Assembly (NCBI RefSeq): GCF_019375475.1
Contig: NZ_JAHXGQ010000006.1
Span: 248,001-312,000, forward strand
DNA: 64,000 nt
Direction of reading: 5' to 3'
Origin: Saccharothrix obliqua
GTDB lineage: Bacteria; Actinomycetota; Actinomycetes; Mycobacteriales; Pseudonocardiaceae
The notes beneath the pieces are model-generated. The model was given only the letters and a program-made list of their open reading frames with translations. It did no database searches and was not told the DNA's origin. A program made the translations under genes and the position numbers. Of the stretch, positions 5,065 through 57,078 are shown one piece after another (within the stretch, counting starts at the first letter, position 1; each line of letters starts with the position of its first letter).

Positions 5065-6686
<1,622 letters not shown>

Positions 6687-6823
6687 CCCGCCCGCCACCG
6701 CGTCGCCCCTGGCGGGCGACGCGGTATGGTCGCTGGTATCACCTGAACCCGCACGGCCACCGGTACGCGTGGCCGCCCGGACCCGATCTCGAACCGCGCC
6801 GCCGGTTCGCCGGAGGAAAGCAC

Positions 6824-8713
6824 GTGACCGAGCACAGCTCCAGTGGCGGAATCGACCAGAGCCAGGTGCTCCAGCGGGTGATCCTGCCCCGCGACGAGGA
6901 CCCGCTGGACGTCCGTCCGCTCTACCTGGACGAGCCCGAGAACGTGCACTCGCACGTGGCGTCGCGCCGTTCGGTGACCGTACCGGCGTCGGCGAAGGTG
7001 TCCTTCGCCTCCTACTTCAACGCCTTCCCGGCCAGCTACTGGAAGCGCTGGACGGTGGTCGAGGAGGTCGTGCTCCGGCTGCACGTGCGCGGCGCGGGCC
7101 GGCTGGACGTGTACCGGTCCAAGCCCAACGGCGACCCGATCCACCTGGACGGCCGCCCGCTCCGTTCCGCGGACGGGTGGACCGACGTGGAGTTCCGGAT
7201 CAGCCTGAAGCCGTTCGAGGACGGCGGCTGGATCTGGTTCGACGTGTTCACCGACGACGCGACGCTGGAGATCGGCGAGGCGGCGTGGACCACCGACCAG
7301 GTGCTCCCGCCGCAGCAGGTCGCCATCGGCATGACCACCATGCGCCCGGTGGATGCCGTCATCGCGTTGCGTGCGCTGGGCGAGGACCCGGCCGTGCTGG
7401 ACGTGGTGGGGAAGGTCTTCGTCGCCGACCAGGGCGCCGTGAAGGTCCGGGACACCGAGGGCTACGCCGAGGCCGTCAAGCTGCTCGGCGACAAGCTGGA
7501 GGTCATCGAGCAGGACAACCTCGGCGGGTCCGGCGGCTTCACGCGTGGCCTGTACGAGGCGATCGAGCACACCGACGTCGACCAGATCATGCTGATGGAC
7601 GACGACATCCGGCTGGAGCCGGACGCGGTGCTGCGCTCCAACGCGTTCGCCCGTGCGGCGGCGCAGCCGGTCATCGTCGGCAGCCACATGCTGAACCTCC
7701 AGGCGCGTGCCCGGCTGCACAGCATGGGCGAGGTCGTGGACCTCGCGTCGGGTTACTGGCGCCCCGCGCCGGGCGCGGTCACCGACCACGACTTCGGCGA
7801 GGAGTCGCTGCGCGAGACCGAGGAACTGCACCTGCGCATCAACTCCACCTACAACGGGTGGTGGATGTGCCTGTTCCCGCGCGAGGTCGTGCAGCGCACC
7901 GGCTACCCGCTGCCGCTGTTCATCAAGTGGGACGACGCGGAATACTCGCTGCGCGCCCTGGAGAACGGCTACCCCACGGTGTCGCTGCCGGGTTCGGCGG
8001 TGTGGCACATGCCGTGGACCGACAAGAACGACGCGACCGACTGGCAGGCGTACTTCCACACCCGCAACCGGCTGGTGATGGCGGCGCTGCACAGCCCGTA
8101 CGACATCCGGTCCACGCTGCTCAAGCAGGGCATGAAGCTGTCGCTGCGGCACCTGCTGTCGATGGAGTATTCGACGGTCGCCGTGCAGCAGAAGGCGATC
8201 GAGGACTTCCTGGCGGGCCCGTCGAAGCTGTTCGACTCGCTGCGCACGGCGTTGCCGGAGATCCAGGCGCTGCGCCGGACCTACACGGACGCGCAGGTCC
8301 TCCCGTCGGCCCGCGAGTTCCCGCCGCCCACGTTCGACATGGTGCGCGCGGAGGCGATGCTGAAGCCGCCGACGAACCCGGCGACCATCGCGGCCGAGGC
8401 GGCGAAGGCGCTGGTGCACAACCTGCGCGCGCCGGAGATCTCGACCGCGGAGCGCCCGCAGATCAACGTGCCCGCGACCAACGCGCGCTGGTTCCTGCTG
8501 GGCAACCTGGACTCGGCGACGGTCTCCAACGCGGACGGGTCGGGCGTGGCGTTCCGCAAGCGCGACCCCAAGGAGTTCCGCCAGCTCATGGCGCGGGCGG
8601 TGCGCAACTACCGCCGGCTGGGCCAGGAGTGGCCGCGGATGAAGCAGCTCTACCGGGACGCCCTGCCGGAGCTGACGTCGGTCGAGGCGTGGCGGAAGGT
8701 CTTCGAGAACTGA
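6824..8713 (+). CDS. glfT2: Galactofuranosyltransferase GlfT2 (galactan polymerase)
   Basis: This 629-residue enzyme adds alternating beta-1,5 and beta-1,6 galactofuranose units to the decaprenyl-linked linker on the inner membrane face. An N-terminal beta-sandwich domain (about 1-165) precedes the GT-A domain. The metal motif MDDDIRLEP lies near residue 263, the catalytic-base region FIKWDDAEYS near 370 and the metal-binding histidine in VWHMPWTDKND near 390, in the order known from M. tuberculosis GlfT2. Length is close to the 637 residues there. The GTG at 6824 follows a GGAGGAAAG ribosome site. A strong hairpin at 8721-8744 closes the forward run. Confidence 0.95.
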   Translation: MTEHSSSGGIDQSQVLQRVILPRDEDPLDVRPLYLDEPENVHSHVASRRSVTVPASAKVSFASYFNAFPASYWKRWTVVEEVVLRLHVRGAGRLDVYRSKPNGDPIHLDGRPLRSADGWTDVEFRISLKPFEDGGWIWFDVFTDDATLEIGEAAWTTDQVLPPQQVAIGMTTMRPVDAVIALRALGEDPAVLDVVGKVFVADQGAVKVRDTEGYAEAVKLLGDKLEVIEQDNLGGSGGFTRGLYEAIEHTDVDQIMLMDDDIRLEPDAVLRSNAFARAAAQPVIVGSHMLNLQARARLHSMGEVVDLASGYWRPAPGAVTDHDFGEESLRETEELHLRINSTYNGWWMCLFPREVVQRTGYPLPLFIKWDDAEYSLRALENGYPTVSLPGSAVWHMPWTDKNDATDWQAYFHTRNRLVMAALHSPYDIRSTLLKQGMKLSLRHLLSMEYSTVAVQQKAIEDFLAGPSKLFDSLRTALPEIQALRRTYTDAQVLPSAREFPPPTFDMVRAEAMLKPPTNPATIAAEAAKALVHNLRAPEISTAERPQINVPATNARWFLLGNLDSATVSNADGSGVAFRKRDPKEFRQLMARAVRNYRRLGQEWPRMKQLYRDALPELTSVEAWRKVFEN

Positions 8714-46194: not shown

Positions 46195-46284
46195 GGAGGC
46201 TTCGCCTAGTCTGGTCTATGGCGCCGCACTGCTAATGCGGTTTGGGTTTACCGCCCATCCCGGGTTCAAATCCCGGAGCCTCCG
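46195..46284 (+). tRNA. tRNA-Ser (anticodon GCT)
   Basis: GGAGGCT (46195-46201) pairs with AGCCTCC (46277-46283), discriminator G. The anticodon stem CCGCA/TGCGG encloses CTGCTAA, giving GCT. The long variable arm and GGTTCAAATCC T-loop confirm serine. CCA is not encoded. Confidence 0.95.
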
Positions 46285-46323
46285 CAACACCTGGCTTCGG
46301 CCGGGTGACAACTGAAGAACGAT

Positions 46324-46396
46324 GCGCTCGTAGCTCAACGGATAGAGCATCTGACTACGGATCAGAAGGTTGCAGGTTCGAATCCTGCCGAGCGCG
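46324..46396 (+). tRNA. tRNA-Arg (anticodon ACG)
   Basis: GCGCTCG (46324-46330) pairs with CGAGCGC (46389-46395), discriminator G. The anticodon stem TCTGA/TCAGA encloses CTACGGA, giving ACG. The T-arm GGTTCGAATCC is standard. It lies 39 bases after tRNA-Ser. Confidence 0.95.
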
Positions 46397-46412
46397 CAAG
46401 AGCAAGTCCAGG

Positions 46413-47796: not shown

Positions 47797-49092
47797 ATGC
47801 ACGGGCCGACGAGCATCGGTGTGCTCCTGCGCCGCCTCCGCGAGGAGACCGGCCGTTCGCAGAGCGAGCAGGCCGATGACCTGTCCGAGCGTGCGGGCCG
47901 TGCGGTCACTCGCAACGAGGTGTCCCGCTGGGAATCCGAGAAGCGCCTGGTGACGCCCTACTGGCAGCAGCACTACGCGAACAGCTTCGGAGTTCCGGCG
48001 GAAGTCATCGCGCGGGCGGTCGCAGTTACCAAAGCGCAGCGTCGCCTGGCCAGGCGCGCCGAGGACTCGTCCGGAGGGGACAGCGTGGAGCGGCGTGAAT
48101 TCATGGGAGCCCTGGCCGGATTGGCGGCCTCCTCCCTCCCCGGCTTACTGTCCTCGCGATCTGCCGGCCGTGCCGCGGTAGATCCCGAGGTCATCGACCA
48201 CTTCGTCTCGTTCCGGGACGCCCTGGTGTCGGCGGACAGCCTCCTCGGACCTGGTGATCTGGTGCGGTCGGCGGGGGAGCAGGTCGGCAACATCGCCAAG
48301 TTGTACGAGCGGATCGAGTCGGGGGCGCGCGGACGCCTGTTCGAGATCGGTGCCTTGTTCGCCGAGTTCTGCGGCTGGCTCGCCGACGACCTGGGCGACT
48401 TCGCCGCGGGCAAAGGCTGGTCAAGCCGGGCGCTTGAGTGGGCTCACTCGTCCGGCAATGCCAACATCGCGGCCTACGTCCTCATGCGGATGAGCCAGCA
48501 GGCCCAATTCCTCGGAGAACGCGCCCGAGCCATCACGCTCGCCCAGGCGTCCATCCGCTGCGAAGCCCAGGTGTCCAGCCCGCAGGTACGTGCGGCCATC
48601 CACCAGCAGGCCGCGCACGCAAGCGCGTTGGACGGCAACGAGCACGCAGCCATGACCTACATCGACCGTGCTGAAGCCCTATCCGGGGTCACCGCACCAG
48701 CGCTCGACCCGTACTCGTTGGCGAGCTACTGCACACCCAGTTACGTGTCAGTGCAGCGTGCGGCCGTCTACGGCACCCTCGGCAACCACGAGCGCGCCCT
48801 CACCGAGTACGACCACGTCATGAGCCAGTGGCCCAAGTCCTTTCACCGCGAACGCGGCCTGCACCTCGCCCGCAGGACAGCTGTAGCAGCACGGGCGGGT
48901 TTCCCCGAAGCAGCGCTGGAGAGCGGCGTGGAGGCGCTCAGGATCGCCCAGGACACCCAGTCGCACCGCACGGTCCGAGAGCTGGCGACGAGCACCAAGA
49001 TCATGCAGTCGTGGAAGGCGCACCCGAGTGTCGACGAGTTCATCCGAGCGGTGAGGAATGAAGGGGACCTGAATGGGCACGCTGAGCGTTGA
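47797..49092 (+). CDS. XRE family regulator with helical-repeat C-terminal domain
   Basis: This 431-residue protein has an XRE-type HTH (IGVLLRRLREETGRSQSEQA, NEVSRWESEKRLVTPYWQQH, about 7-62), a twin-Arg-like/hydrophobic link (REFMGALAGLAASSLPGLL near 100), and TPR-like helical repeats to the end (AYVLMRMSQQAQFLGERA, RAAIHQQAAHASALDGNEHAAM). This is a common actinobacterial regulator type. It overlaps the RibD-like gene by 20 bases, so it probably controls or is co-regulated with it. Confidence 0.85.
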   Translation: MHGPTSIGVLLRRLREETGRSQSEQADDLSERAGRAVTRNEVSRWESEKRLVTPYWQQHYANSFGVPAEVIARAVAVTKAQRRLARRAEDSSGGDSVERREFMGALAGLAASSLPGLLSSRSAGRAAVDPEVIDHFVSFRDALVSADSLLGPGDLVRSAGEQVGNIAKLYERIESGARGRLFEIGALFAEFCGWLADDLGDFAAGKGWSSRALEWAHSSGNANIAAYVLMRMSQQAQFLGERARAITLAQASIRCEAQVSSPQVRAAIHQQAAHASALDGNEHAAMTYIDRAEALSGVTAPALDPYSLASYCTPSYVSVQRAAVYGTLGNHERALTEYDHVMSQWPKSFHRERGLHLARRTAVAARAGFPEAALESGVEALRIAQDTQSHRTVRELATSTKIMQSWKAHPSVDEFIRAVRNEGDLNGHAER

Positions 49093-49810
49093 CGAACTGG
49101 TCGGCCGAGCCGAATGGGACTCGGTGACCCGGACGCACCGGCGCCCGTTCGTGGTCTACAAGTTCGCCGCCACCCTCGACGGCCGCATCGCCGCCGAGGA
49201 CGGTACCAGCCAGTGGATCACCAGCCCGGAGAGCCGGGCGGAGGTCCACCTCCTCCGCGCGGGCTGCGACGCCACCGTGGTCGGCTCGGGCACGCAGCAG
49301 GCCGACAACCCCAACCTGGCCGTGCGCGGCAACGACGACCCGCGCCTGGACCTGTCCATGGTGAACGACCCGAAGCGCCAACCGCTCCGCGTCGTGCTCG
49401 ACAGCAACGCCAAGACCCCAGCCGACGCGAACGTCTGCAACGACGCCGCGCCCACGCTCATCGTCGTGGCCGAGGACGCCGACGCGTCGCACCTCGACGG
49501 CGTGGTCGACGTGCTGAAGGTCAAGCGCGCAGACAAGGGTCTCGACCTACCGTCCGTCCTCGCGGGCCTCCACGACCGCGGCGTGCGGGCGATCTTCCTC
49601 GAAGGCGGCCCGACGCTCGCCGGCAGCTTCATCGCCCGGGGCTTGGTGGACCGCGTGGTGAACTACGTGGCCCCCGCCCTGCTCGGCTCCGGCAAGAGCG
49701 GCTTGGAGAACGCGGGCATCCACAGCATGTCCGGAATCCTCCGCCTGGAACTCCTCGACGTGTCCCGCTCGGGAAGCGACGTCCGTCTAGTGGCCCGTCC
49801 GGCTCGATAG
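49073..49810 (+). CDS. RibD C-terminal/dihydrofolate reductase-like reductase
   Basis: This 245-residue protein is the reductase domain of RibD without the deaminase domain: RPFVVYKFAATLDGRIAA near 24, LRAGCDATVVGSGTQQADNP near 63, LRVVLDSNAKTP near 103 and IFLEGGPTLAGSFIARGLVD near 174 (NADPH and substrate motifs). It may reduce a pteridine or pyrimidine intermediate. Stand-alone copies beside XRE regulators are common in actinomycetes and may serve secondary metabolism. GGGGACC precedes the ATG inside the regulator gene. Confidence 0.85.
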   Translation: MGTLSVDELVGRAEWDSVTRTHRRPFVVYKFAATLDGRIAAEDGTSQWITSPESRAEVHLLRAGCDATVVGSGTQQADNPNLAVRGNDDPRLDLSMVNDPKRQPLRVVLDSNAKTPADANVCNDAAPTLIVVAEDADASHLDGVVDVLKVKRADKGLDLPSVLAGLHDRGVRAIFLEGGPTLAGSFIARGLVDRVVNYVAPALLGSGKSGLENAGIHSMSGILRLELLDVSRSGSDVRLVARPAR

Positions 49811-49996: not shown

Positions 49997-50590
49997 GTGT
50001 CGGCCGAGTTAGACCAGCTCGTCGCCCGGTTCGAACAGTTCCAAGCCAAGCTGCACCGGGTCGACCAGCAGGTCGCGGGCGTCGGCGAGATGCAGCGGGA
50101 GCTGGCCGCGATGGAGGTGGTGGCCACTTCGCCGGACCGCGCGGTGACGGTTGTGGCCGGTCCGTCCGGCGCGGTCAAGGACATTCGGTTGACCGACCAG
50201 GCCATGCGCCGACCGCCGCAGGCGCTGGCCGCCGCGCTGATGGCGACGCTGCGGCAGGCCGTGGCCGAGGCCGCTCGCCGCCAGGCGGCGATCGTGGAGA
50301 ACGCGCTCGGCGACGACATGCGACTCACCGACCAGGTGCTGGAGACCCAGGCCCAGCTGTTCGGCGTCACACCGCGGGAACTGCGCGCCATGACCGAGCA
50401 GAACCCGCCGCCACCCCACAGCGGTCCGCCGCCCACCCGACCCCGCCGACCCGCGCCCGCCGAGGACCAGGACGACTTTTCACAGCGTCGGTTCCTTCGC
50501 GACGACGGCCGGCCGGCACCCCCCGGTTCCGGCCCTGCGCAGGGCCGAGACGGCCGTTTCCTCAACCTCTACGACGACGAGGACCGGTGA
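49997..50590 (+). CDS. YbaB/EbfC family DNA-binding protein with disordered tail
   Basis: This 197-residue protein has the YbaB layout: a long helix (LDQLVARFEQFQAKLHRVDQ), beta strands (RAVTVVAGPSGAVKDIRLTD) and a second helix (ALAAALMATLRQAVAEAARR). From about 138 a Pro-rich disordered tail follows. In actinobacteria YbaB-like genes commonly precede WXG100 and T7SS effector genes, as here. CCCAGGAGGT lies 6 bases before the GTG. It opens the forward T7SS module. Confidence 0.85.
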   Translation: MSAELDQLVARFEQFQAKLHRVDQQVAGVGEMQRELAAMEVVATSPDRAVTVVAGPSGAVKDIRLTDQAMRRPPQALAAALMATLRQAVAEAARRQAAIVENALGDDMRLTDQVLETQAQLFGVTPRELRAMTEQNPPPPHSGPPPTRPRRPAPAEDQDDFSQRRFLRDDGRPAPPGSGPAQGRDGRFLNLYDDEDR

Positions 50591-50621
50591 TCGTCGTGCA
50601 CGACCAGCTGAGGAGCGCGCG

Positions 50622-50957
50622 GTGAGCGGCGGCTTCGACGTCAACCCCGACGAACTGCGGACCTTCGCCGGCCAACTGGACGGCCACCGCGGCACCGCCG
50701 CCGAGATCGCGGGCCTGGTGGCCAAGGCGGACGTGACGGACAAGTCGTGGGGCGTGGTCGGTTTGTTCGTCAAGGACGACTACACGCGGATGCTCGGCGA
50801 CCTCAAGGAACTGTTCCAGGCCATGCAGGACGGCTTGCAGTCCGGTTCGGACAAGTTCAAGGGCGCGGCGCAGGACTACGACGACCAGGAGGAAGCGGTC
50901 AAGCAGCTCCTGAACGGTCTGCGAGTCGAGCTGGACGGGGGCGTCCACAATGGCTGA
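50622..50957 (+). CDS. EspC/WXG100-like T7SS partner protein
   Basis: This 111-residue helical protein has the two-helix WXG-like layout: VNPDELRTFAGQLDGHRGTA, a turn with KSWGVVG near 43 and a second helix. YDDQE near 87 is a YxxxE secretion motif near the C terminus. It resembles EspC/DUF2580 excreted proteins. It overlaps the next gene by 8 bases and would pair with that product. Confidence 0.8.
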   Translation: MSGGFDVNPDELRTFAGQLDGHRGTAAEIAGLVAKADVTDKSWGVVGLFVKDDYTRMLGDLKELFQAMQDGLQSGSDKFKGAAQDYDDQEEAVKQLLNGLRVELDGGVHNG

Positions 50958-52071
50958 GGAGAAGACCACGGCCGGCGGCGTCGAGATCACCGTCGGCGAG
51001 AAGGACACCAGCCAGAAGATGGCGGAAGCCGCCCCCTTCTACGGCAACTACCTCAAGACCAAAGAGGCGTGGGGCAAGGCATCGGAGAAGGGCGGTGCCG
51101 AGATCACCGGCCTGGCCTCCGAGGGCACCGCGTTCATCGGGGCGCTCGGCACCTCGGCGCTGGGTATCGCGACCGACCCGATCGGCTGGCTGGTCGGGCA
51201 GGGGCTGAACTTCCTGATCAGCGTCGTGCAGCCGCTGGAGGACGCGATCCACTTCGTCAGCGGCGACGGTCCGGCACTGGCCCAGGCGGCCGAGAACTTC
51301 AACGCCATCGGCAAGGGCGTGGCCGACCTGCGCAAGAAGTTCGACGACGACTTGCAGAAGTCGGTGACGAGTTGGGGCGGCCCCGCGTCGGAGGCCGCGA
51401 GCACGAAGTTGGGCGAGTTCGCCAACGGCATCGACGGTGTCGCCGGCCAGGCGGGTGAGCTGGCGCAGATGCTCCAGATCTCCAGCATGATCATGACGAT
51501 CGTCGAGGACTTCATCAAGGCGATCCTCACCGAGCTGATCACCTGGCTGATCATGATCTGGATCCCGGCGCTGGCCGCGGCCGTGCCCAGCTTCGGTGCC
51601 TCGACCGCCGCGGCGGGTGCCGCGACCGGCGTGCGCGTCGCCGCCACCGGCAGCCGGGTGGCCCGGATCGTGGCCAAGCTGAAGCAGTTCCTGACCAGGA
51701 TCCTCGACTTCCTGCGCAACCTGGCCAAGCGCGTCGGCAACGTGAAGACCGCCTTCCAGCGCTCCATGGCCAACAAGCACGCCGGCAGCGTTGTCGCGGA
51801 CGTCCTCAAGGAGACGGGCGACAAGTCGCCACTGGTCAAGCTGTGGAGCAAAGAAGGCATGCTCGGCGAGCGGCTGCAAAACGGGTTCGGCTCGATGCTG
51901 GGCAAGGCGGCCGTCGACGCGGGGCGATCGCAGCTGGGCGTCGGCACAGGTGCGAACGCCGGTATCGACAAGCCCTTGCGGAACATCGGTTCGGGCCAGA
52001 AGGCGGCCGACTACGACGGCACCGGCACCGACCGGTCGAAGCAGGAGACCGAAGGGTACCTGGACATCTGA
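50950..52071 (+). CDS. T7SS effector-like protein with membrane-active centre
   Basis: This 373-residue protein has a polar start, a hydrophobic stretch (GTAFIGALGTSALGIATDPI, about 56-75), a helical part with VTSWGGPASEAASTK near 138 (W-x-G turn), a second strongly hydrophobic segment (about 175-205) and a basic region (RVARIVAKLKQFLTRILDFL near 234). The C-terminal 100 residues (TGDKSPLVKLWSKEGMLGER) are polar. The pattern is of a T7SS effector with a variable end. No toxin family is recognised. A membrane protein follows after 2 bases. Confidence 0.65.
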   Translation: MAEEKTTAGGVEITVGEKDTSQKMAEAAPFYGNYLKTKEAWGKASEKGGAEITGLASEGTAFIGALGTSALGIATDPIGWLVGQGLNFLISVVQPLEDAIHFVSGDGPALAQAAENFNAIGKGVADLRKKFDDDLQKSVTSWGGPASEAASTKLGEFANGIDGVAGQAGELAQMLQISSMIMTIVEDFIKAILTELITWLIMIWIPALAAAVPSFGASTAAAGAATGVRVAATGSRVARIVAKLKQFLTRILDFLRNLAKRVGNVKTAFQRSMANKHAGSVVADVLKETGDKSPLVKLWSKEGMLGERLQNGFGSMLGKAAVDAGRSQLGVGTGANAGIDKPLRNIGSGQKAADYDGTGTDRSKQETEGYLDI

Positions 52072-52073
52072 TC

Positions 52074-52814
52074 ATGGCGTACCTGCTGGATCTCGCACCG
52101 CTCATCGCCGTCGTCCTCGCTCTGTTCGGCCTGCTGCTCTGGTGGCGACGGCGCCGCGACCGGAAGGCGGAGCACGAGCACGCCGAGGCGCTGGCCGCAC
52201 TCGCGGGCAGTGCCGGCGGGAGGGTGGTCGGCCGCGCGGGGGCACGCGCGTGGTCGGCCGGACTCCTGTCGCCGAAGGGTTTGCCGTTGTCCCGGCCGCG
52301 TTTCGTGCTCGCGCTGGACGTCCGGCGGGGCGACTGGTCGGTCCGCGTGAGCGAGGCGTCGGTGAAGAAGGCCACCTCGACCAGCGCGGCGACGTCCTAC
52401 GAGCACCGGATCGAGGTGGCCGCCTCAGGTCTGCCGACGATGAAGATCAGCCGTCGCGTCCACTCGGGCCGCCCGCTGGACCCCGCCCTGGTACGCGAGG
52501 TCCCGGTGACCGTGGCCGCGGAGGGCGGCCAGTGGCACCGGGTGGGGTTCCCGCCAGGCCCCTTCGACGCCCGGTTCGCCGTGTTCGCAAGCGATCCGGC
52601 CGCCGCCGCGCAGGCGCTCAACCCCCGGGCCGTCGAACACCTGCTCGCCCGGGTGGACTTCCTGCCCTTCACCCTGCACTTCGAGTCGGGGTTGGTCTTC
52701 GGCACGATGTCGGGCCGGATCAACCCCGACCACGTCCTGAACGCGGTCGACGCCGTCCTCGGCCTGCTGGACCGGATGGGAGCGACACCCGCGCACCCAC
52801 CCGTGACGCCCTGA
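52074..52814 (+). CDS. Membrane-anchored hypothetical protein, possible immunity partner
   Basis: This 246-residue protein has one N-terminal membrane helix (LLDLAPLIAVVLALFGLLLW, about 4-23), a basic stop-transfer RRRRDRK, and a cytoplasmic or extracellular beta-rich domain (RPRFVLALDVRRGDWSVRVS, FTLHFESGLVFGTMSGRI). No family is recognised. Immediate linkage to the effector-like gene suggests an immunity or assembly role; that is inference. Confidence 0.6.
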   Translation: MAYLLDLAPLIAVVLALFGLLLWWRRRRDRKAEHEHAEALAALAGSAGGRVVGRAGARAWSAGLLSPKGLPLSRPRFVLALDVRRGDWSVRVSEASVKKATSTSAATSYEHRIEVAASGLPTMKISRRVHSGRPLDPALVREVPVTVAAEGGQWHRVGFPPGPFDARFAVFASDPAAAAQALNPRAVEHLLARVDFLPFTLHFESGLVFGTMSGRINPDHVLNAVDAVLGLLDRMGATPAHPPVTP

Positions 52815-52945
52815 GACCACCCGCTCAGCCGGTCCGGCCCGAGTTCCACGGTGAACTGCGGCAGGTTCAGGCGCTGTTGTGCGCGGCCCACCGCGAGGTG
52901 CGAGGGATCCGGCAGCACGCCCGGCATCCGGACCGCGGCATCGCG

Positions 52946-53410
52946 TTATTCGCCCAACGCCACCAGGATGACGGTGTTGGTGTTCTTCGCCAGGTACGCG
53001 GTGGCGGACCAGGTGGGGGTTGTGAACGCCTCGTCCAGCGAGCCGCCGGTGAGGTAGGGGCCGCGGGGGAGGTGGTCGCGGAGGCCGCTGACGACCTCGG
53101 GTGGGGTGGTGGTCTCCCGGGTGTCCTTGTCCAGGCGGGCGAGTGTCGACTCGGGGAGGGTGACGACGGCGTCGATCCAGAACGTCGAGGGGCCGGGGAC
53201 GCGGCCGTCGCCGAGTGTGCCGGACATCCACTCCGCCTTCTCCGCGGCGCTGAGGAGCGGGAAGCGCTTGGTGAGCGGTTCGAGGTCCGTGCGGAGTTCG
53301 CCGGTGCCCGACTTGGTAGGCATGGTGGGTCGTCCTGTCTCCGTTGGGGCGGTGCCGCAGGCGGCCATGGTCAGCAGCAGGAGCGCGACGGCGAGCGCGG
53401 TGCGGATCAC
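52946..53410 (-). CDS. Putative lipoprotein, possible immunity protein
   Basis: This 154-residue protein has a lipoprotein signal (ALAVALLLLTMAACG, lipobox Cys near 18), then a polar domain with GELRTDLEPLTKRFPLLSAA and NTVILVALGE at the end. It would sit on the outer membrane face. Its GTG overlaps the stop of the effector-like gene (GTGA), so the two are made together. Immunity to an extracytoplasmic toxin is the natural reading but not shown. Confidence 0.65.
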   Translation of the reverse strand: MIRTALAVALLLLTMAACGTAPTETGRPTMPTKSGTGELRTDLEPLTKRFPLLSAAEKAEWMSGTLGDGRVPGPSTFWIDAVVTLPESTLARLDKDTRETTTPPEVVSGLRDHLPRGPYLTGGSLDEAFTTPTWSATAYLAKNTNTVILVALGE

Positions 53411-54681
53411 CGGGCGCGGTTCCTCTCGGGTTCCCTCGGGTTGTCCGGCGTCGGGCCGCGGTCGCGGTCGGTGCCGCGGACGGTGCCGTCGTCGGGCGTG
53501 GCGTCGTTGGTGAGACCCGCGGGAGGGTGGCCCAGTTCCCAGGTGACGGTCCTGGTCATGCTGCCGTGCGTGTCGAACGGCCTGGCCCAGCCGATTTCGG
53601 TGAAGCGGCCGTTGTCGTTGTCCGGCGCGCCGGTGGCGATGTCGGCGTCGTCGCGGTTGAAGTTGTAGCGGTCCTCGCCCTCCACGGTGATGTCCATGGT
53701 GACCTTGTTGCCCTCGACCTTGACGTTGCCGTGGCTCCAGATCTGGTACCCACCCACGGCTTTCTGCCAGTTCTCGGTCTGCGGGTAGGGCGACGCACCG
53801 CTCGCGGCGCCGGTCATCGCGAAGTCGGTGCGGCCGGAGCGGATGATCTCCTCCGCGGCTCGGGCGGCACGGGTGACCTCCGCGTCGACGCCCTTGCGGA
53901 TGCCGGAGTCCTCCCCGTACGCCTTCTCGTAGTCCCACTCCTTCGGTGCGCCGGTGTTGTCCCAGTAGTGCTCGTACATCGCCGTCGCGTCAGGCATGAG
54001 CCCGAGCGCCTGCGCGCCGCGCAACTGCGTCAGCCACTTCAGCTTCGCGGCCTGGTCGGCGAGTTCGGGATCCTTGGAGTCGTAGGCGAAGTCCTCGTCG
54101 AACTCGACGTGGGGCTTCTCCGGCGGACCGGTGTGGTACTTGCCGTCCGCGGTGGACGTGATGTCGGCGTCGGCGAGGTTCGTGGCACCGTGGTCACCGA
54201 CCTCGCCCGCCGCGGCGGAGGACAGGGCTTCGGCGAGGCGGGCGTCGACCTCCTGCGCGTCGGCGACCAGGTGGCCGACCTGGTCCGCGAGAGTTCGGGC
54301 GGTGGCCGCGCGGCTCGGGTCGGCGGTGCCCGGGTCGTTGTCGCGCACGGAACCGTCCGGGTTGATGGTGAACCAGTTGGCCTGTGCGACGGCCTCCAGT
54401 TCCTCGACGCGTCGGCGGAGGTCGGCCACGGCGTCGGCGGCGTCTTGGAGTGCCTTCTGCACGTGGGCGGCCTCGGCGACGACGTGCTCGGCGCGGTCGC
54501 GCAACCCGGCCAGGGCGCCGCGCGCGCCGTCGGCGCTGCTGCCGTGCCAGAACAGCGGTCCGAACGACAGGTCGAGTTCGTCCTGGAGGCCCAGCACCTG
54601 GTCCTTCTGCCCGCGCACGGACCGTGCGACCTCCTCCAGCGCGTCGGGGTTCCACGCGCGGACCTCGGCGTACCCGGTCAT
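53407..54681 (-). CDS. T7SS polymorphic toxin-like protein
   Basis: This 424-residue protein has an N-terminal WXG/PPE-like helical domain (about 1-130) with LSFGPLFWHGSSADGARGAL near 40 and a coiled coil up to 115. A middle linker (about 150-200) leads to a compact C-terminal domain (about 205-405) with EWDYEKAYGEDSG, VGGYQIWSHGNVKVEGN, and EGEDRYNFNRDDADIATGAP then NGRFTEIGWARPFD. D-R-Y-N-F-N recalls the D-x-Y-D motif of colicin M-like lipid II hydrolases, but the His-Arg that follows there is absent. The tail is Arg/Pro-rich. Start and stop overlap the neighbours by 4 bases each. Toxin role is inferred. Confidence 0.65.
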   Translation of the reverse strand: MTGYAEVRAWNPDALEEVARSVRGQKDQVLGLQDELDLSFGPLFWHGSSADGARGALAGLRDRAEHVVAEAAHVQKALQDAADAVADLRRRVEELEAVAQANWFTINPDGSVRDNDPGTADPSRAATARTLADQVGHLVADAQEVDARLAEALSSAAAGEVGDHGATNLADADITSTADGKYHTGPPEKPHVEFDEDFAYDSKDPELADQAAKLKWLTQLRGAQALGLMPDATAMYEHYWDNTGAPKEWDYEKAYGEDSGIRKGVDAEVTRAARAAEEIIRSGRTDFAMTGAASGASPYPQTENWQKAVGGYQIWSHGNVKVEGNKVTMDITVEGEDRYNFNRDDADIATGAPDNDNGRFTEIGWARPFDTHGSMTRTVTWELGHPPAGLTNDATPDDGTVRGTDRDRGPTPDNPREPERNRAR

Positions 54682-54983
54682 CCGATTGACCCGCCGAACA
54701 GGTCGAAGTCCCGGCGTGCGGCGTCCTCGTCCTTCGCGTACCTGTCGGCGGAGGAGGCCAGGTTGCCGCCGAACGCGGTGATGTCGGCCGACCACGCACG
54801 CAGCCGTTCACCCCACGCGGTGGTCAGGGCGCGGGTACGTTCCGCCGAAGCCGAGTCGGGCATGGCCTCGGCAACCGCGGCCACCGCCTCCCCCAGCGTG
54901 ATGCGACCGGCCTGCTCGCCGGCCGAGGCGGCGGCGTTCGCAGCCTTGCGCAGCCCCTCGATGTCGACCTCGTAGCCGCTCAT
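54678..54983 (-). CDS. EspC/WXG100-like T7SS partner protein
   Basis: This 101-residue helical protein starts MSGYEVDIEGLRKAANAAAS and has TTAWGERLRAW near 54 as the turn region. YAKDE near 83 is a YxxxE secretion motif. GGGAGG precedes the ATG. It is the first gene of a reverse operon with the toxin-like gene (ATGA overlap) and lipoprotein. Confidence 0.8.
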   Translation of the reverse strand: MSGYEVDIEGLRKAANAAASAGEQAGRITLGEAVAAVAEAMPDSASAERTRALTTAWGERLRAWSADITAFGGNLASSADRYAKDEDAARRDFDLFGGSIG

Positions 54984-55193
54984 GGTCCTCCCCACGGGTG
55001 CGTGAGGCGAGAGTAAGGCGGTGGGTGATCGTGATACCGGTTTTTGCCGGCCGATCACTCGATCAGACGGTTATCGCGGTTCGCGATTTCCGTTGGGCTG
55101 GAATTCTGCAACTTCGCGGGTGCGATTCCGCCCGTCGGCGGACGGGATTGGTCCGGGTGGACCGTCGGGTGACCGCAATTGTGGTTCACCCGG

Positions 55194-55565
55194 TCAGCCC
55201 CCGCAGACTCGGGTGACCGGTTGGGCGTCGTGGTGCACGTCCAAAACCGTCCATCCCGCTGAGAGGAGAAGTACGCAGGCTCCTAGTGCCAAGACCGCGG
55301 TGAGCGTGATCGCGACGGGTCGGGGCCAATGCCTGAGCATCGTCCGCACCACCGGGACCAGGGCCACGGCGGCCAGTGCCGACGCGGCGGCACCTCCCCA
55401 CGCGTAGACGAACGAACTCGAAGGTATCGCGAGCGTGCCGTTGCACAGGCGTGCCGTGCTCTGGTGGAACGCAGTGAGAACGGCAAGTGCCTCCGCGCTG
55501 AGCCAGACCCCGGCTGCCGCCGCGGCGGCGACCACGGCGAGCCACCACCACGTGGCCCTGGTCAT
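55194..55565 (-). CDS. Small polytopic membrane protein, possible immunity partner
   Basis: This 123-residue protein has three or four membrane helices (TWWWLAVVAAAAAAGVWLSA, VYAWGGAAASALAAVALVPV, AITLTAVLALGACVLLLSAG). No family is recognised. Its ATG overlaps the stop of the WXG-like gene (ATGA). As the last gene of the amidase module it is a candidate immunity protein. Confidence 0.65.
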   Translation of the reverse strand: MTRATWWWLAVVAAAAAAGVWLSAEALAVLTAFHQSTARLCNGTLAIPSSSFVYAWGGAAASALAAVALVPVVRTMLRHWPRPVAITLTAVLALGACVLLLSAGWTVLDVHHDAQPVTRVCGG

Positions 55566-55879
55566 TCCGCTTCCCAATGCATGTCCGTCAGCGCTTCGGT
55601 GATCCGGCGTTCGACGTCCTCGTAGTCCTTCGCCGAAGCGCGGAGGTTTTCGGCCGCCTGCGCTGTTCGGTCGATGACATCAGTCAGGTGCTCAAGCCAT
55701 GACTGGCGACATCCCATCAGGGCATCGGACGAGAGCCAGCCGGGATTGGCCTGTGCCGCGTCGGCGCTGGGTGTCAGGGAATTCGCGATGTTCTCGTGAG
55801 CGCTCGACCCGGCGGCGTCCACGTCGTCCGCTGCTTGACGCAACGCCGCCAGGCTGACGTTGATGCCCACCGCGATCAC
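55562..55879 (-). CDS. WXG100-like T7SS partner protein
   Basis: This 105-residue helical protein has NVSLAALRQAADDVDAAGSS as first helix, a turn with NPGWLSSDAL near 45 and a second helix with YEDVE near 88, a YxxxE secretion motif. GTG at 55879 overlaps the amidase stop; a GTG three codons later is also possible. It links the amidase-like effector and the small membrane protein in one operon. Confidence 0.78.
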   Translation of the reverse strand: MIAVGINVSLAALRQAADDVDAAGSSAHENIANSLTPSADAAQANPGWLSSDALMGCRQSWLEHLTDVIDRTAQAAENLRASAKDYEDVERRITEALTDMHWEAE

Positions 55880-57078
55880 CTCTCCGCCGGGTCGACGCGC
55901 ACGACGATGAACTGCTGCGCACCCAGGCTCTGCTCGATGTGCCGTTCTCGACCTTGCAGGCTGAGGTTCACCTTGTTGTCGGAGTGCTGGGTGTAGTGGA
56001 CGACGCCGTCCGGCGTCACAGAGGTGACGACGGCGGTGTGGTGGATGTCGCCGGTCTTCGGGTCGTCGTTCGACCCCTCCTGCTTGAGGAAGATCAGGTC
56101 GCCCGGACGCGCTTCGTTGAGCGGTACCTCGTGGCTCATGGTCTTGGTGGTCAGGTACTCGTGGAGCTGGTTCGCACCGGCCCAGCTGTGCGTGGGCCGC
56201 CCCAGCTTCCAGAGGGAGTCGTCGGTCCAGTCGCTGTTCTCCTCCGCACCGGCGTGCTTCATGGCGACCGAGGCGAACTGCGTGCAGTTGTTGTCGTACT
56301 TGTCGATCGAGGTGTCGTTCCAGTGCGCCAAGCTGAACCGGACCATCTCCACGCGATCGAGCGGGCCGGGGCCGCGTAATCGCTGCTTCACGTCATCCGG
56401 CACACCGTTGAGGTCGGCGAGTTCGACGGGGACGGCGAGTTCGAGTTCGCGGCGCTGCGCGTCCGACAGCGAGTTCCACCAGGCGGCGACGATCGTCGGA
56501 TCCTGGCCGTGGGGCAGCGCGAAGTGGAGCATCGTGATCTCGGCCTGGGAGGCCACCGCCTGGAACTCGTCCAGTGCCTTCCCGGAATCGGTGATCGAGG
56601 TCGAATCCCTGAGCCGGGCCAGTTGCTTCGCGGCCAGGTCGTCGGCTTGCGTCGCGGCCTCGACCGCGTCGCGGACCATCCGCTCCACCACGGGCCTGTG
56701 CTCCACGGCCTCCGCATAGCCGTCATACGGCGCTGCGGTGCCGTCGTCGTTGACGCGGAGGTGGTGCGTTCTCGCCATGTCGACCGCACCACCCAACTGG
56801 CGCTGGGCGACCTCGACAGCCTGCGCCAGCCCTTCGAGGACCATCGCGATACCACGCATGAGGTCGGATGCGCAGTCGTACTGCGTGGACAGGTCGCCGA
56901 GCACCTTCCCGGCCGCTTCGCCGACCCTGTCCTGCCAATGCTCGTCGAGCTTGTCCTTGCCCTGGCGGCGGATGTCCTTGCCCGCGTACACCGCCTGGTC
57001 CGCGAAGTTCCGCCACCCCTTGGCCGCGCGCTCCCACGCCGCCCAGTCGGCATCGCGCAACTGCACCATGTTGACCAC
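55876..57078 (-). CDS. T7SS-type effector with C-terminal amidase domain
   Basis: This protein of about 400 residues has an N-terminal WXG-like helical domain (DADWAAWERAAKGWRNFADQ, about 8-27, to about 105), a charged middle and a C-terminal amidase_6/NlpC-like domain (about 255-400). IDKYDNNCTQFASVAMKHAG provides the catalytic Cys near 267, GDIHHTAVVTSV the His near 353, and VVHYTQHSDNK the third position. This fold cleaves peptidoglycan or amide bonds. GTG at 57078 has AGGGGGA upstream; starts at 57093 and 57069 are also in frame. A WXG domain fused to an amidase suggests secretion and wall attack or remodelling. Confidence 0.75.
   Translation of the reverse strand: MVNMVQLRDADWAAWERAAKGWRNFADQAVYAGKDIRRQGKDKLDEHWQDRVGEAAGKVLGDLSTQYDCASDLMRGIAMVLEGLAQAVEVAQRQLGGAVDMARTHHLRVNDDGTAAPYDGYAEAVEHRPVVERMVRDAVEAATQADDLAAKQLARLRDSTSITDSGKALDEFQAVASQAEITMLHFALPHGQDPTIVAAWWNSLSDAQRRELELAVPVELADLNGVPDDVKQRLRGPGPLDRVEMVRFSLAHWNDTSIDKYDNNCTQFASVAMKHAGAEENSDWTDDSLWKLGRPTHSWAGANQLHEYLTTKTMSHEVPLNEARPGDLIFLKQEGSNDDPKTGDIHHTAVVTSVTPDGVVHYTQHSDNKVNLSLQGRERHIEQSLGAQQFIVVRVDPAER

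Follow-up and report, generated by a model that had tools for sequence, protein, structure and literature searches.

Three candidate ESX cargo cassettes in Saccharothrix obliqua, one with a predicted colicin-M-fold toxin domain and a linked lipoprotein family

We consider here a 64,000-nucleotide stretch of the Saccharothrix obliqua genome (contig NZ_JAHXGQ010000006.1, positions 248,001 to 312,000), called the window below, and in it three gene sets at 49997..57078, which we call modules 1, 2 and 3. Taken as a whole, it is rather likely in our judgment that these are three cargo cassettes of an ESX-type type VII secretion system (T7SS; T7SSa), served by an ESX core on another contig. Module 2 would encode an antibacterial toxin that attacks lipid II, with a lipoprotein immunity protein, module 1 a conserved secreted pair of the Esp type along with a cytosolic chaperone resembling YbaB and an accessory membrane protein, and module 3 an exported amidase cutting cell-wall peptides. 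At the center of this proposal stands module 2, whose toxin-like C-terminal domain has the predicted fold of colicin M and is accompanied, across unlike carrier proteins, by one family of lipoproteins.

The side-by-side placement of the three sets given in a preliminary description of this DNA was confirmed: each of the ten genes has an intact reading frame with its start and stop checked, and the forward set (module 1) converges with the two reverse sets across 131 bases. The overlaps it described between adjacent genes are present at five of the seven intra-set junctions (one of eight bases, four of four bases); the other two, between the genes for the YbaB and EspC-like proteins and between those for the 373-aa WXG/PPE-like and the transmembrane (TM) protein of module 1, are gaps of 31 and 2 bases. 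The YxxxE motifs reported in the three small partners (YDDQE, YAKDE, YEDVE) are where they were said to be, starting 26, 20 and 20 residues before the C-termini, compared with a chance expectation by shuffling of 0.05-0.10 per protein for any YxxxD/E within the last 35 residues. Partners and effectors also fit the WXG100/EspC models of Pfam as had been supposed, mostly weakly; the WXG100 matches of the 111-aa, 373-aa, 424-aa and 105-aa proteins fall below cut-off. The 154-aa lipoprotein, the 101-aa partner and the 123-aa membrane protein have no Pfam match, and the matches of the 246-aa membrane protein are weak and all below cut-off.

Module 2: toxin domain and linked lipoprotein

Module 2 consists of three genes:
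54678..54983, minus strand: EspC-like small partner, 101 aa, YAKDE (by motif; no Pfam match)
53407..54681, minus strand: putative polymorphic T7SS toxin, 424 aa (WXG100 1.6e-4, below cut-off)
52946..53410, minus strand: putative lipoprotein immunity protein, 154 aa, lipobox-like MAAC (4-base overlap with the toxin gene)

The 424-aa protein is divided into a WXG100-type N-terminal delivery domain (residues ~1-190) and a C-terminal toxin-like domain (~190-385), and its WXG100 match does reach the cut-off in the whole-genome search with frame neighbours (27.6 versus 27.3 bits). It is matched in 76 of 150 genomes sampled from the family, mostly across residues ~2-190. Five kinds of C-terminus follow the delivery domain among 29 proteins, the window's included. 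The 28 relatives, which are the best-scoring loci returned, taken whole, rather than all matches, end in Abhydrolase_8 (12) or DUF6973 (3), both assigned via Pfam, or, by reading of the tails, in an LHHEERH type (5), a sister type (5) or the window's type (3). Because swapping of C-termini on a shared N-terminus is the mark of a polymorphic toxin, the polymorphic toxin-immunity character that had been proposed for all three sets is borne out for module 2, with its linked lipoprotein; it is not supported for module 1, whose nearest relatives have a conserved end and whose YbaB protein fits a chaperone. WXG100 is matched at E 0.01 in only 10 of the 29 delivery-domain proteins. The YxxxE motif of the EspC-like partner is kept in 9/9 homologs from seven distinct places, a tenth match at E 0.28 being left out as spurious. 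A crude gene call upstream of 25 wider-set carriers gave a small open reading frame (ORF) with YxxxD/E in 11, a small ORF lacking the motif in 8 and neither in 6. Two of the alternative ends are of separate note. The sister domain (DRYNWD...MHRAG; L032, L033, L035, L045, L050) shares the delivery domain, is homologous to the toxin domain and has an HR pair, and the LHHEERHSQQW domain (L040, L042, L046, L049, L052) is metal-binding in look, with no fitting Pfam family listed.

The toxin domain itself reaches far beyond ESX carriers. We found it in 72 loci, with one genome per species, from Actinobacteria, Proteobacteria, Myxococcota, Bacteroides, Chloroflexi and others, by searching with the peptide pattern TENWQKA and with a second one around YxHYW. 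These loci are not independent, as Corallococcus gives eight of them and three (L137, L140, L169) coincide with L122, L123 and L128; fragments or contig ends (L166, L194, L206, L208) and early ends (L138, L205) were kept within the 72. For the toxin-domain alignment (A2), 55 of the loci were joined with the window to give 56 rows, fragments and near-duplicates being left out. The invariance of TENWQKA in this alignment is partly due to selection, since it served as a search pattern; the DxY[N/D]FN stretch, which was not among the search patterns, is kept almost throughout the family. Pfam scanning of 20 of the 72 carriers placed 3 with WXG100, 5 with RHS, 1 with an extracellular contractile injection system (eCIS) core and 1 with OmpA/peptidoglycan-binding domains, 10 being without a family; one WXG100 and one RHS match among these fall below cut-off, and one RHS carrier also has LysM. 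In Ralstonia the toxin gene begins 7 bases past a VgrG-type frame, and a DotU gene lies upstream, an arrangement like that of a type VI secretion system (T6SS), and in Actinosynnema the domain terminates a 1693-aa protein, RHS-type by its YD repeats, followed by a lipoprotein gene. At one locus approximately the last 55 matching toxin residues and the lipoprotein gene are retained, resembling a leftover cassette. Individual fusions include that of the toxin domain to an eCIS core domain (L193), which hints that a contractile injection system delivers it, and that to an OmpA plus peptidoglycan-binding domain (L185).

The predicted fold of the toxin domain is that of colicin M (Foldseek E 3.6e-5, probability 1.00), at modest TM-scores of 0.29-0.33. 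In the ranking by Z for the predicted model, the colicin M family occupies places 2-12 (7.4-6.0), and the first place (Z 8.3, root-mean-square deviation 3.8, 190 residues) is taken by BtpeA, a Bacteroides fragilis T6SS effector with an immunity partner (9jdi), which gave no sequence match in the profile search. The HR pair at the colicin M spacing, DxYD(x5)HR, is absent in all 56 rows, and none of the 56 matches PF14859 or any other Pfam family at E 0.01.

In 52 of the 72 loci, an ORF for a lipoprotein of 120-230 aa begins close to the domain stop, compared with 2 of 440 other stops in the same loci, and the lipoprotein gene goes with the toxin domain across unlike carriers, not with the delivery domain. 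Among the 20 lipobox-negative loci, six have an adjacent match to the lipoprotein hidden Markov model (HMM; L143, L144, L157, L160, L205, and weakly L175), leaving 14 of the 72 with neither; at L166 an HMM match lies 1.7 kb further on. The mature lipoproteins can be aligned across phyla (alignment A4, 46 of the 52 plus the window; L151, L167, L178, L184, L186 and L189 left out). No Pfam family is matched at E 0.01 by these 47 sequences, and therefore the family differs from PF13995 of Cmi.

We propose that the export signal is formed jointly by the small partner with its YxxxE motif and by the WXG100-type N-terminus of the 424-aa protein, with the pair being exported by ESX. The colicin-M-fold domain would then attack, at the outer surface of the target membrane, a cell-wall precursor linked to undecaprenyl, most likely lipid II, while the co-translated lipoprotein, anchored outside the producer's own membrane, would bind and block the toxin domain. 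An immunity protein of the lipoprotein type would place the toxin's action outside the cytoplasm. What we observe is the gene order, the swapping of domains, the lipoprotein family linked to the toxin domain, the predicted fold and the genes of the ESX core; export, toxicity, the target and the way in which the toxin is neutralised are inferred.

Modules 1 and 3

The remaining seven genes are the following:
49997..50590, plus strand: YbaB/EbfC-family protein, 197 aa, module 1 (Pfam YbaB 4e-12)
50622..50957, plus strand: EspC/EspF-like small partner, 111 aa, YDDQE, module 1 (PF10824, 25.0 bits, cut-off 23.5)
50950..52071, plus strand: WXG100/PPE-like putative secreted partner, 373 aa, C-terminus LDI, module 1 (WXG100, conserved end)
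52074..52814, plus strand: one-TM protein, N-terminally anchored, 246 aa, module 1 (hydropathy)
55876..57078, minus strand: WXG-linker-Amidase_6/CHAP protein, 400 aa, C265/H347, module 3 (Amidase_6 1.8e-11, CHAP 5.1e-6)
55562..55879, minus strand: WXG100-like small partner, 105 aa, YEDVE, module 3 (WXG100 0.0028, below cut-off)
55194..55565, minus strand: membrane protein, 123 aa, three predicted TM segments, module 3 (hydropathy)

Module 1 is a conserved four-gene Esp-type operon and probably not a toxin-immunity pair. In each of eight loci fetched around relatives (L117-L120, L124, L125, L129, L130), counterparts of all four genes stand near one another, their order kept or interrupted by tandem copies, and tblastn homologs of the 246-aa protein are found in 8/8. 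The YxxxD/E motif of the YDDQE partner is kept in 8/8 tblastn homologs. Relatives of the 373-aa protein occur at E 0.001 in 135 of the 150 family genomes and at E 1e-40 or better in 67, many of the weaker ones matching only part of the protein. WXG100 is matched at E 0.01 by every one of its 30 nearest members, which are conserved to the C-terminal end, with L-D before the last residue invariant in the alignment; as read in 29 relatives, the proteins end in LDI or LDF, and once in LDL. This tail may be a docking tail for a chaperone or the membrane protein. In 28 of 29 cases the 373-aa relative is followed by an ORF that has a hydrophobic start, versus 58 of 202 control stops. The C-terminal domain of the 246-aa protein is probably cytosolic, considering the RRRR that follows its TM segment.

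Mycobacterial ESX-1 offers examples of YbaB-like proteins: EspH, which interacts with EspE and is required for EspE/EspF, and EspL, which stabilises EspE, EspF and EspH, with direct action on their transcription excluded (PMC6107294, PMC6319747). The EspE/EspF/EspH/EspL and EspA/EspC/EspD sets of ESX-1 resemble module 1 in combining a small EspC/F partner, a larger WXG/PPE-like substrate and a YbaB-like proposed chaperone; by this analogy the YbaB protein is most readily taken for a substrate chaperone of the module 1 pair, akin to EspH, EspL or EspD. Module 1 differs from them in its additional one-TM protein and in lacking a PF18879 match: EspA_EspE was not matched at E 0.01 by any of the 30 members of the 373-aa family, and we therefore say that the 373-aa protein would work like EspE, not that it is one.

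In module 3, C265, H347 and a linker AWW...P...G.P are common to all eight amidase sequences, the window's included, and with its catalytic Cys and His conserved the enzyme is probably active. Its N-terminal ~230 residues also precede other C-termini. Of the seven other loci with a near full-length relative, five were examined for neighbours: the small partner is beside the amidase in 5/5 (in three of these by tblastn), the small membrane gene in two and missing in three. The third partner's YxxxD/E motif is found in one of five loci (L126, as opposed to L127, L134, L135 and L136), matches at E 0.48 and 0.82 being left out as spurious. The module 3 protein may be a weapon or, equally, an enzyme that remodels the wall.

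The ESX core and the surroundings of the locus

As the preliminary description had anticipated, an ESX core is encoded elsewhere in the genome: our search of the 8.04 Mb assembly (49 contigs) located it on a contig other than that of the window, with one EccC above cut-off and one YukD/EccD genome-wide. The locus comprises EccB (6.5e-117), EccC (1333 aa), EccD (3.2e-88), EccE (2.4e-29) and a MycP-like subtilase (1.2e-44), and two strong WXG100 genes lie ~8.5 kb past eccC. Between eccB and the subtilase gene (L006:7144-8619, contig C1) are encoded a 119-aa protein with YxxxD and a 370-aa WXG100-like protein with a Pro/Gly-rich tail, a pair laid out like those of modules 1 and 2 and without sequence relation to module 1. 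Two further neighbouring pairs of EspC-like and WXG100-like matches in the same genome (C44:191852-192624 and C7:106941-107656), one match of each pair being below cut-off, are possible further cassettes.

The side-by-side arrangement of the modules looks particular to this genome. Among 20 loci of 7-19 kb around single modules, none has two different modules or the flanking XRE, RibD or WYL genes, and in eight WYL-gene loci of the genus no module gene stands alongside at 40% identity or more, which suggests a grouping of recent date or one confined to this genome. A tRNA-Ser/tRNA-Arg pair lies at 46195-46397, ~3.6 kb upstream of module 1; tRNA genes commonly serve as integration sites. Of the four genes called from this pair to module 1, none has an integrase match in Pfam. 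Before the three gene sets, at 47797-49810, are a helix-turn-helix regulator and a reductase with a RibD C-terminal domain, the latter found at E 1e-40 in none of 11 other genomes of the genus. Elsewhere in the window, a GlfT2-type galactofuranosyltransferase of 998 aa (5717-8713) suggests an arabinogalactan-type wall.

Related systems, alternatives and meaning

Several known toxin systems resemble module 2 in part. The PEST cassettes of Mycobacterium prophages, phage-encoded and presumed to yield ESX-exported toxins, have a similar small WXG100 partner, a toxin with an N-terminal WXG domain and variable C-terminus, and a co-varying immunity gene (PMC10654092); module 2 differs in its colicin-M-like end, its lipoprotein immunity and the presence of its toxin family on RHS, T6SS and eCIS carriers. 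The colicin M family (PF14859; ColM, PaeM, syringacin M, pectocin M) has in common with module 2 the predicted fold, the DxY[N/D]FN stretch and membrane-anchored immunity, predicted outside the cytoplasm; module 2 has as carriers substrates of ESX and other secretion systems rather than receptor-binding bacteriocins, and lacks HR. The T6SS effector/immunity pair DUF3289/DUF943 also involves a colicin M fold in a putative periplasm-active secreted toxin (PMC11148199), DUF3289 being a different Pfam family from the module 2 domain, none of whose 56 rows matches any. TelC/TipC of the Streptococcus T7SSb provides the precedent of a T7SS-exported lipid II phosphatase acting outside the cell membrane (PMC5555719, PMC6193138), although TelC has a different fold (PMC5821083), an LXG rather than WXG/PPE domain, and a Firmicutes host. 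A 'novel' colicin-M-like polymorphic toxin of the lipocone paper is similar in fold and in having membrane-anchored immunity, there BamE-like; compared by description only, it could be the same family as that of module 2 (PMC12419801). In the one open-access library searched, we found no report of a colicin-M-like domain on an actinobacterial ESX/T7SS substrate, nor of the module 2 toxin-lipoprotein family. The cassette layout and colicin-M-fold T6SS effectors are already known.

Even if module 2 encodes an antibacterial toxin against which the lipoprotein gives immunity, the toxin domain might hydrolyse another envelope phospholipid or glycolipid, or bind lipid II without cleaving it. We think this somewhat unlikely. 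The missing HR pair, the position D229, which is mostly N, and the new invariant D162 and D169 speak for such a change of action, as does the suggestion that mutated pectocin M1, without degrading lipid II, may lyse cells from the periplasm (PMC5821083); they have to be balanced, however, against the retention of DxY[N/D]FN almost throughout the family and a predicted fold nearest to the lipid II phosphatases.

Two observations weigh against our assignment of module 1. Distant relatives of the 373-aa protein (about 24-31% identity) share only its middle, within frames of up to ~1,900 aa, and hence the wider superfamily may well include polymorphic proteins; and EspL perhaps stabilises its partners by means other than direct binding, with whiB6 down in the mutant (PMC6107294, PMC6319747). 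The former, together with the similar general layout of the sets, the module 3 N-terminus on other C-termini and the kept catalytic residues of the amidase, favours the view of the preliminary description that all three modules are polymorphic toxin-immunity sets. Conservation of the 30 nearest 373-aa members up to the invariant LD, the company of the YbaB and membrane genes in eight loci, and the missing module 3 membrane gene in three of five make this quite improbable to us. The EspL observation, along with the name DNA-binding that Pfam gives the YbaB family, would suit a nucleoid protein regulating the operon in place of a chaperone; we consider this unlikely, since the ybaB gene is found with the secreted pair in 8/8 fetched loci. 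Lastly, the side-by-side arrangement not being conserved, the three could be unrelated operons that merely resemble T7SS cargo and are neighbours by chance, but each module recurs as a unit elsewhere, WXG100/EspC models are matched and the genome has an ESX core, and we give this idea hardly any credence.

If the three modules are indeed ESX cargo cassettes with a chaperone of the YbaB type in module 1, the idea of YbaB chaperones would extend from mycobacterial ESX-1 to a whole actinomycete family. For the toxin of module 2, the target we propose, lipid II, is also that of major antibiotics. Few toxin families attacking it were met in the literature we surveyed, namely colicin M, DUF3289 (by fold) and TelC, and a Pfam-unmatched family with its immunity partner as a natural inhibitor would, if our proposal is true, widen this set. 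Opinion could go either way, in our view, on the broader notion that this unnamed colicin-M-fold family with its altered active site and its one new lipoprotein family is a universal anti-cell-wall warhead, shared by ESX/T7SS, T6SS, RHS and contractile-injection carriers across phyla, which would make the actinomycete ESX a lipid II weapon. The family also makes directly testable the question of whether ESX systems of non-mycobacterial actinomycetes kill other bacteria.

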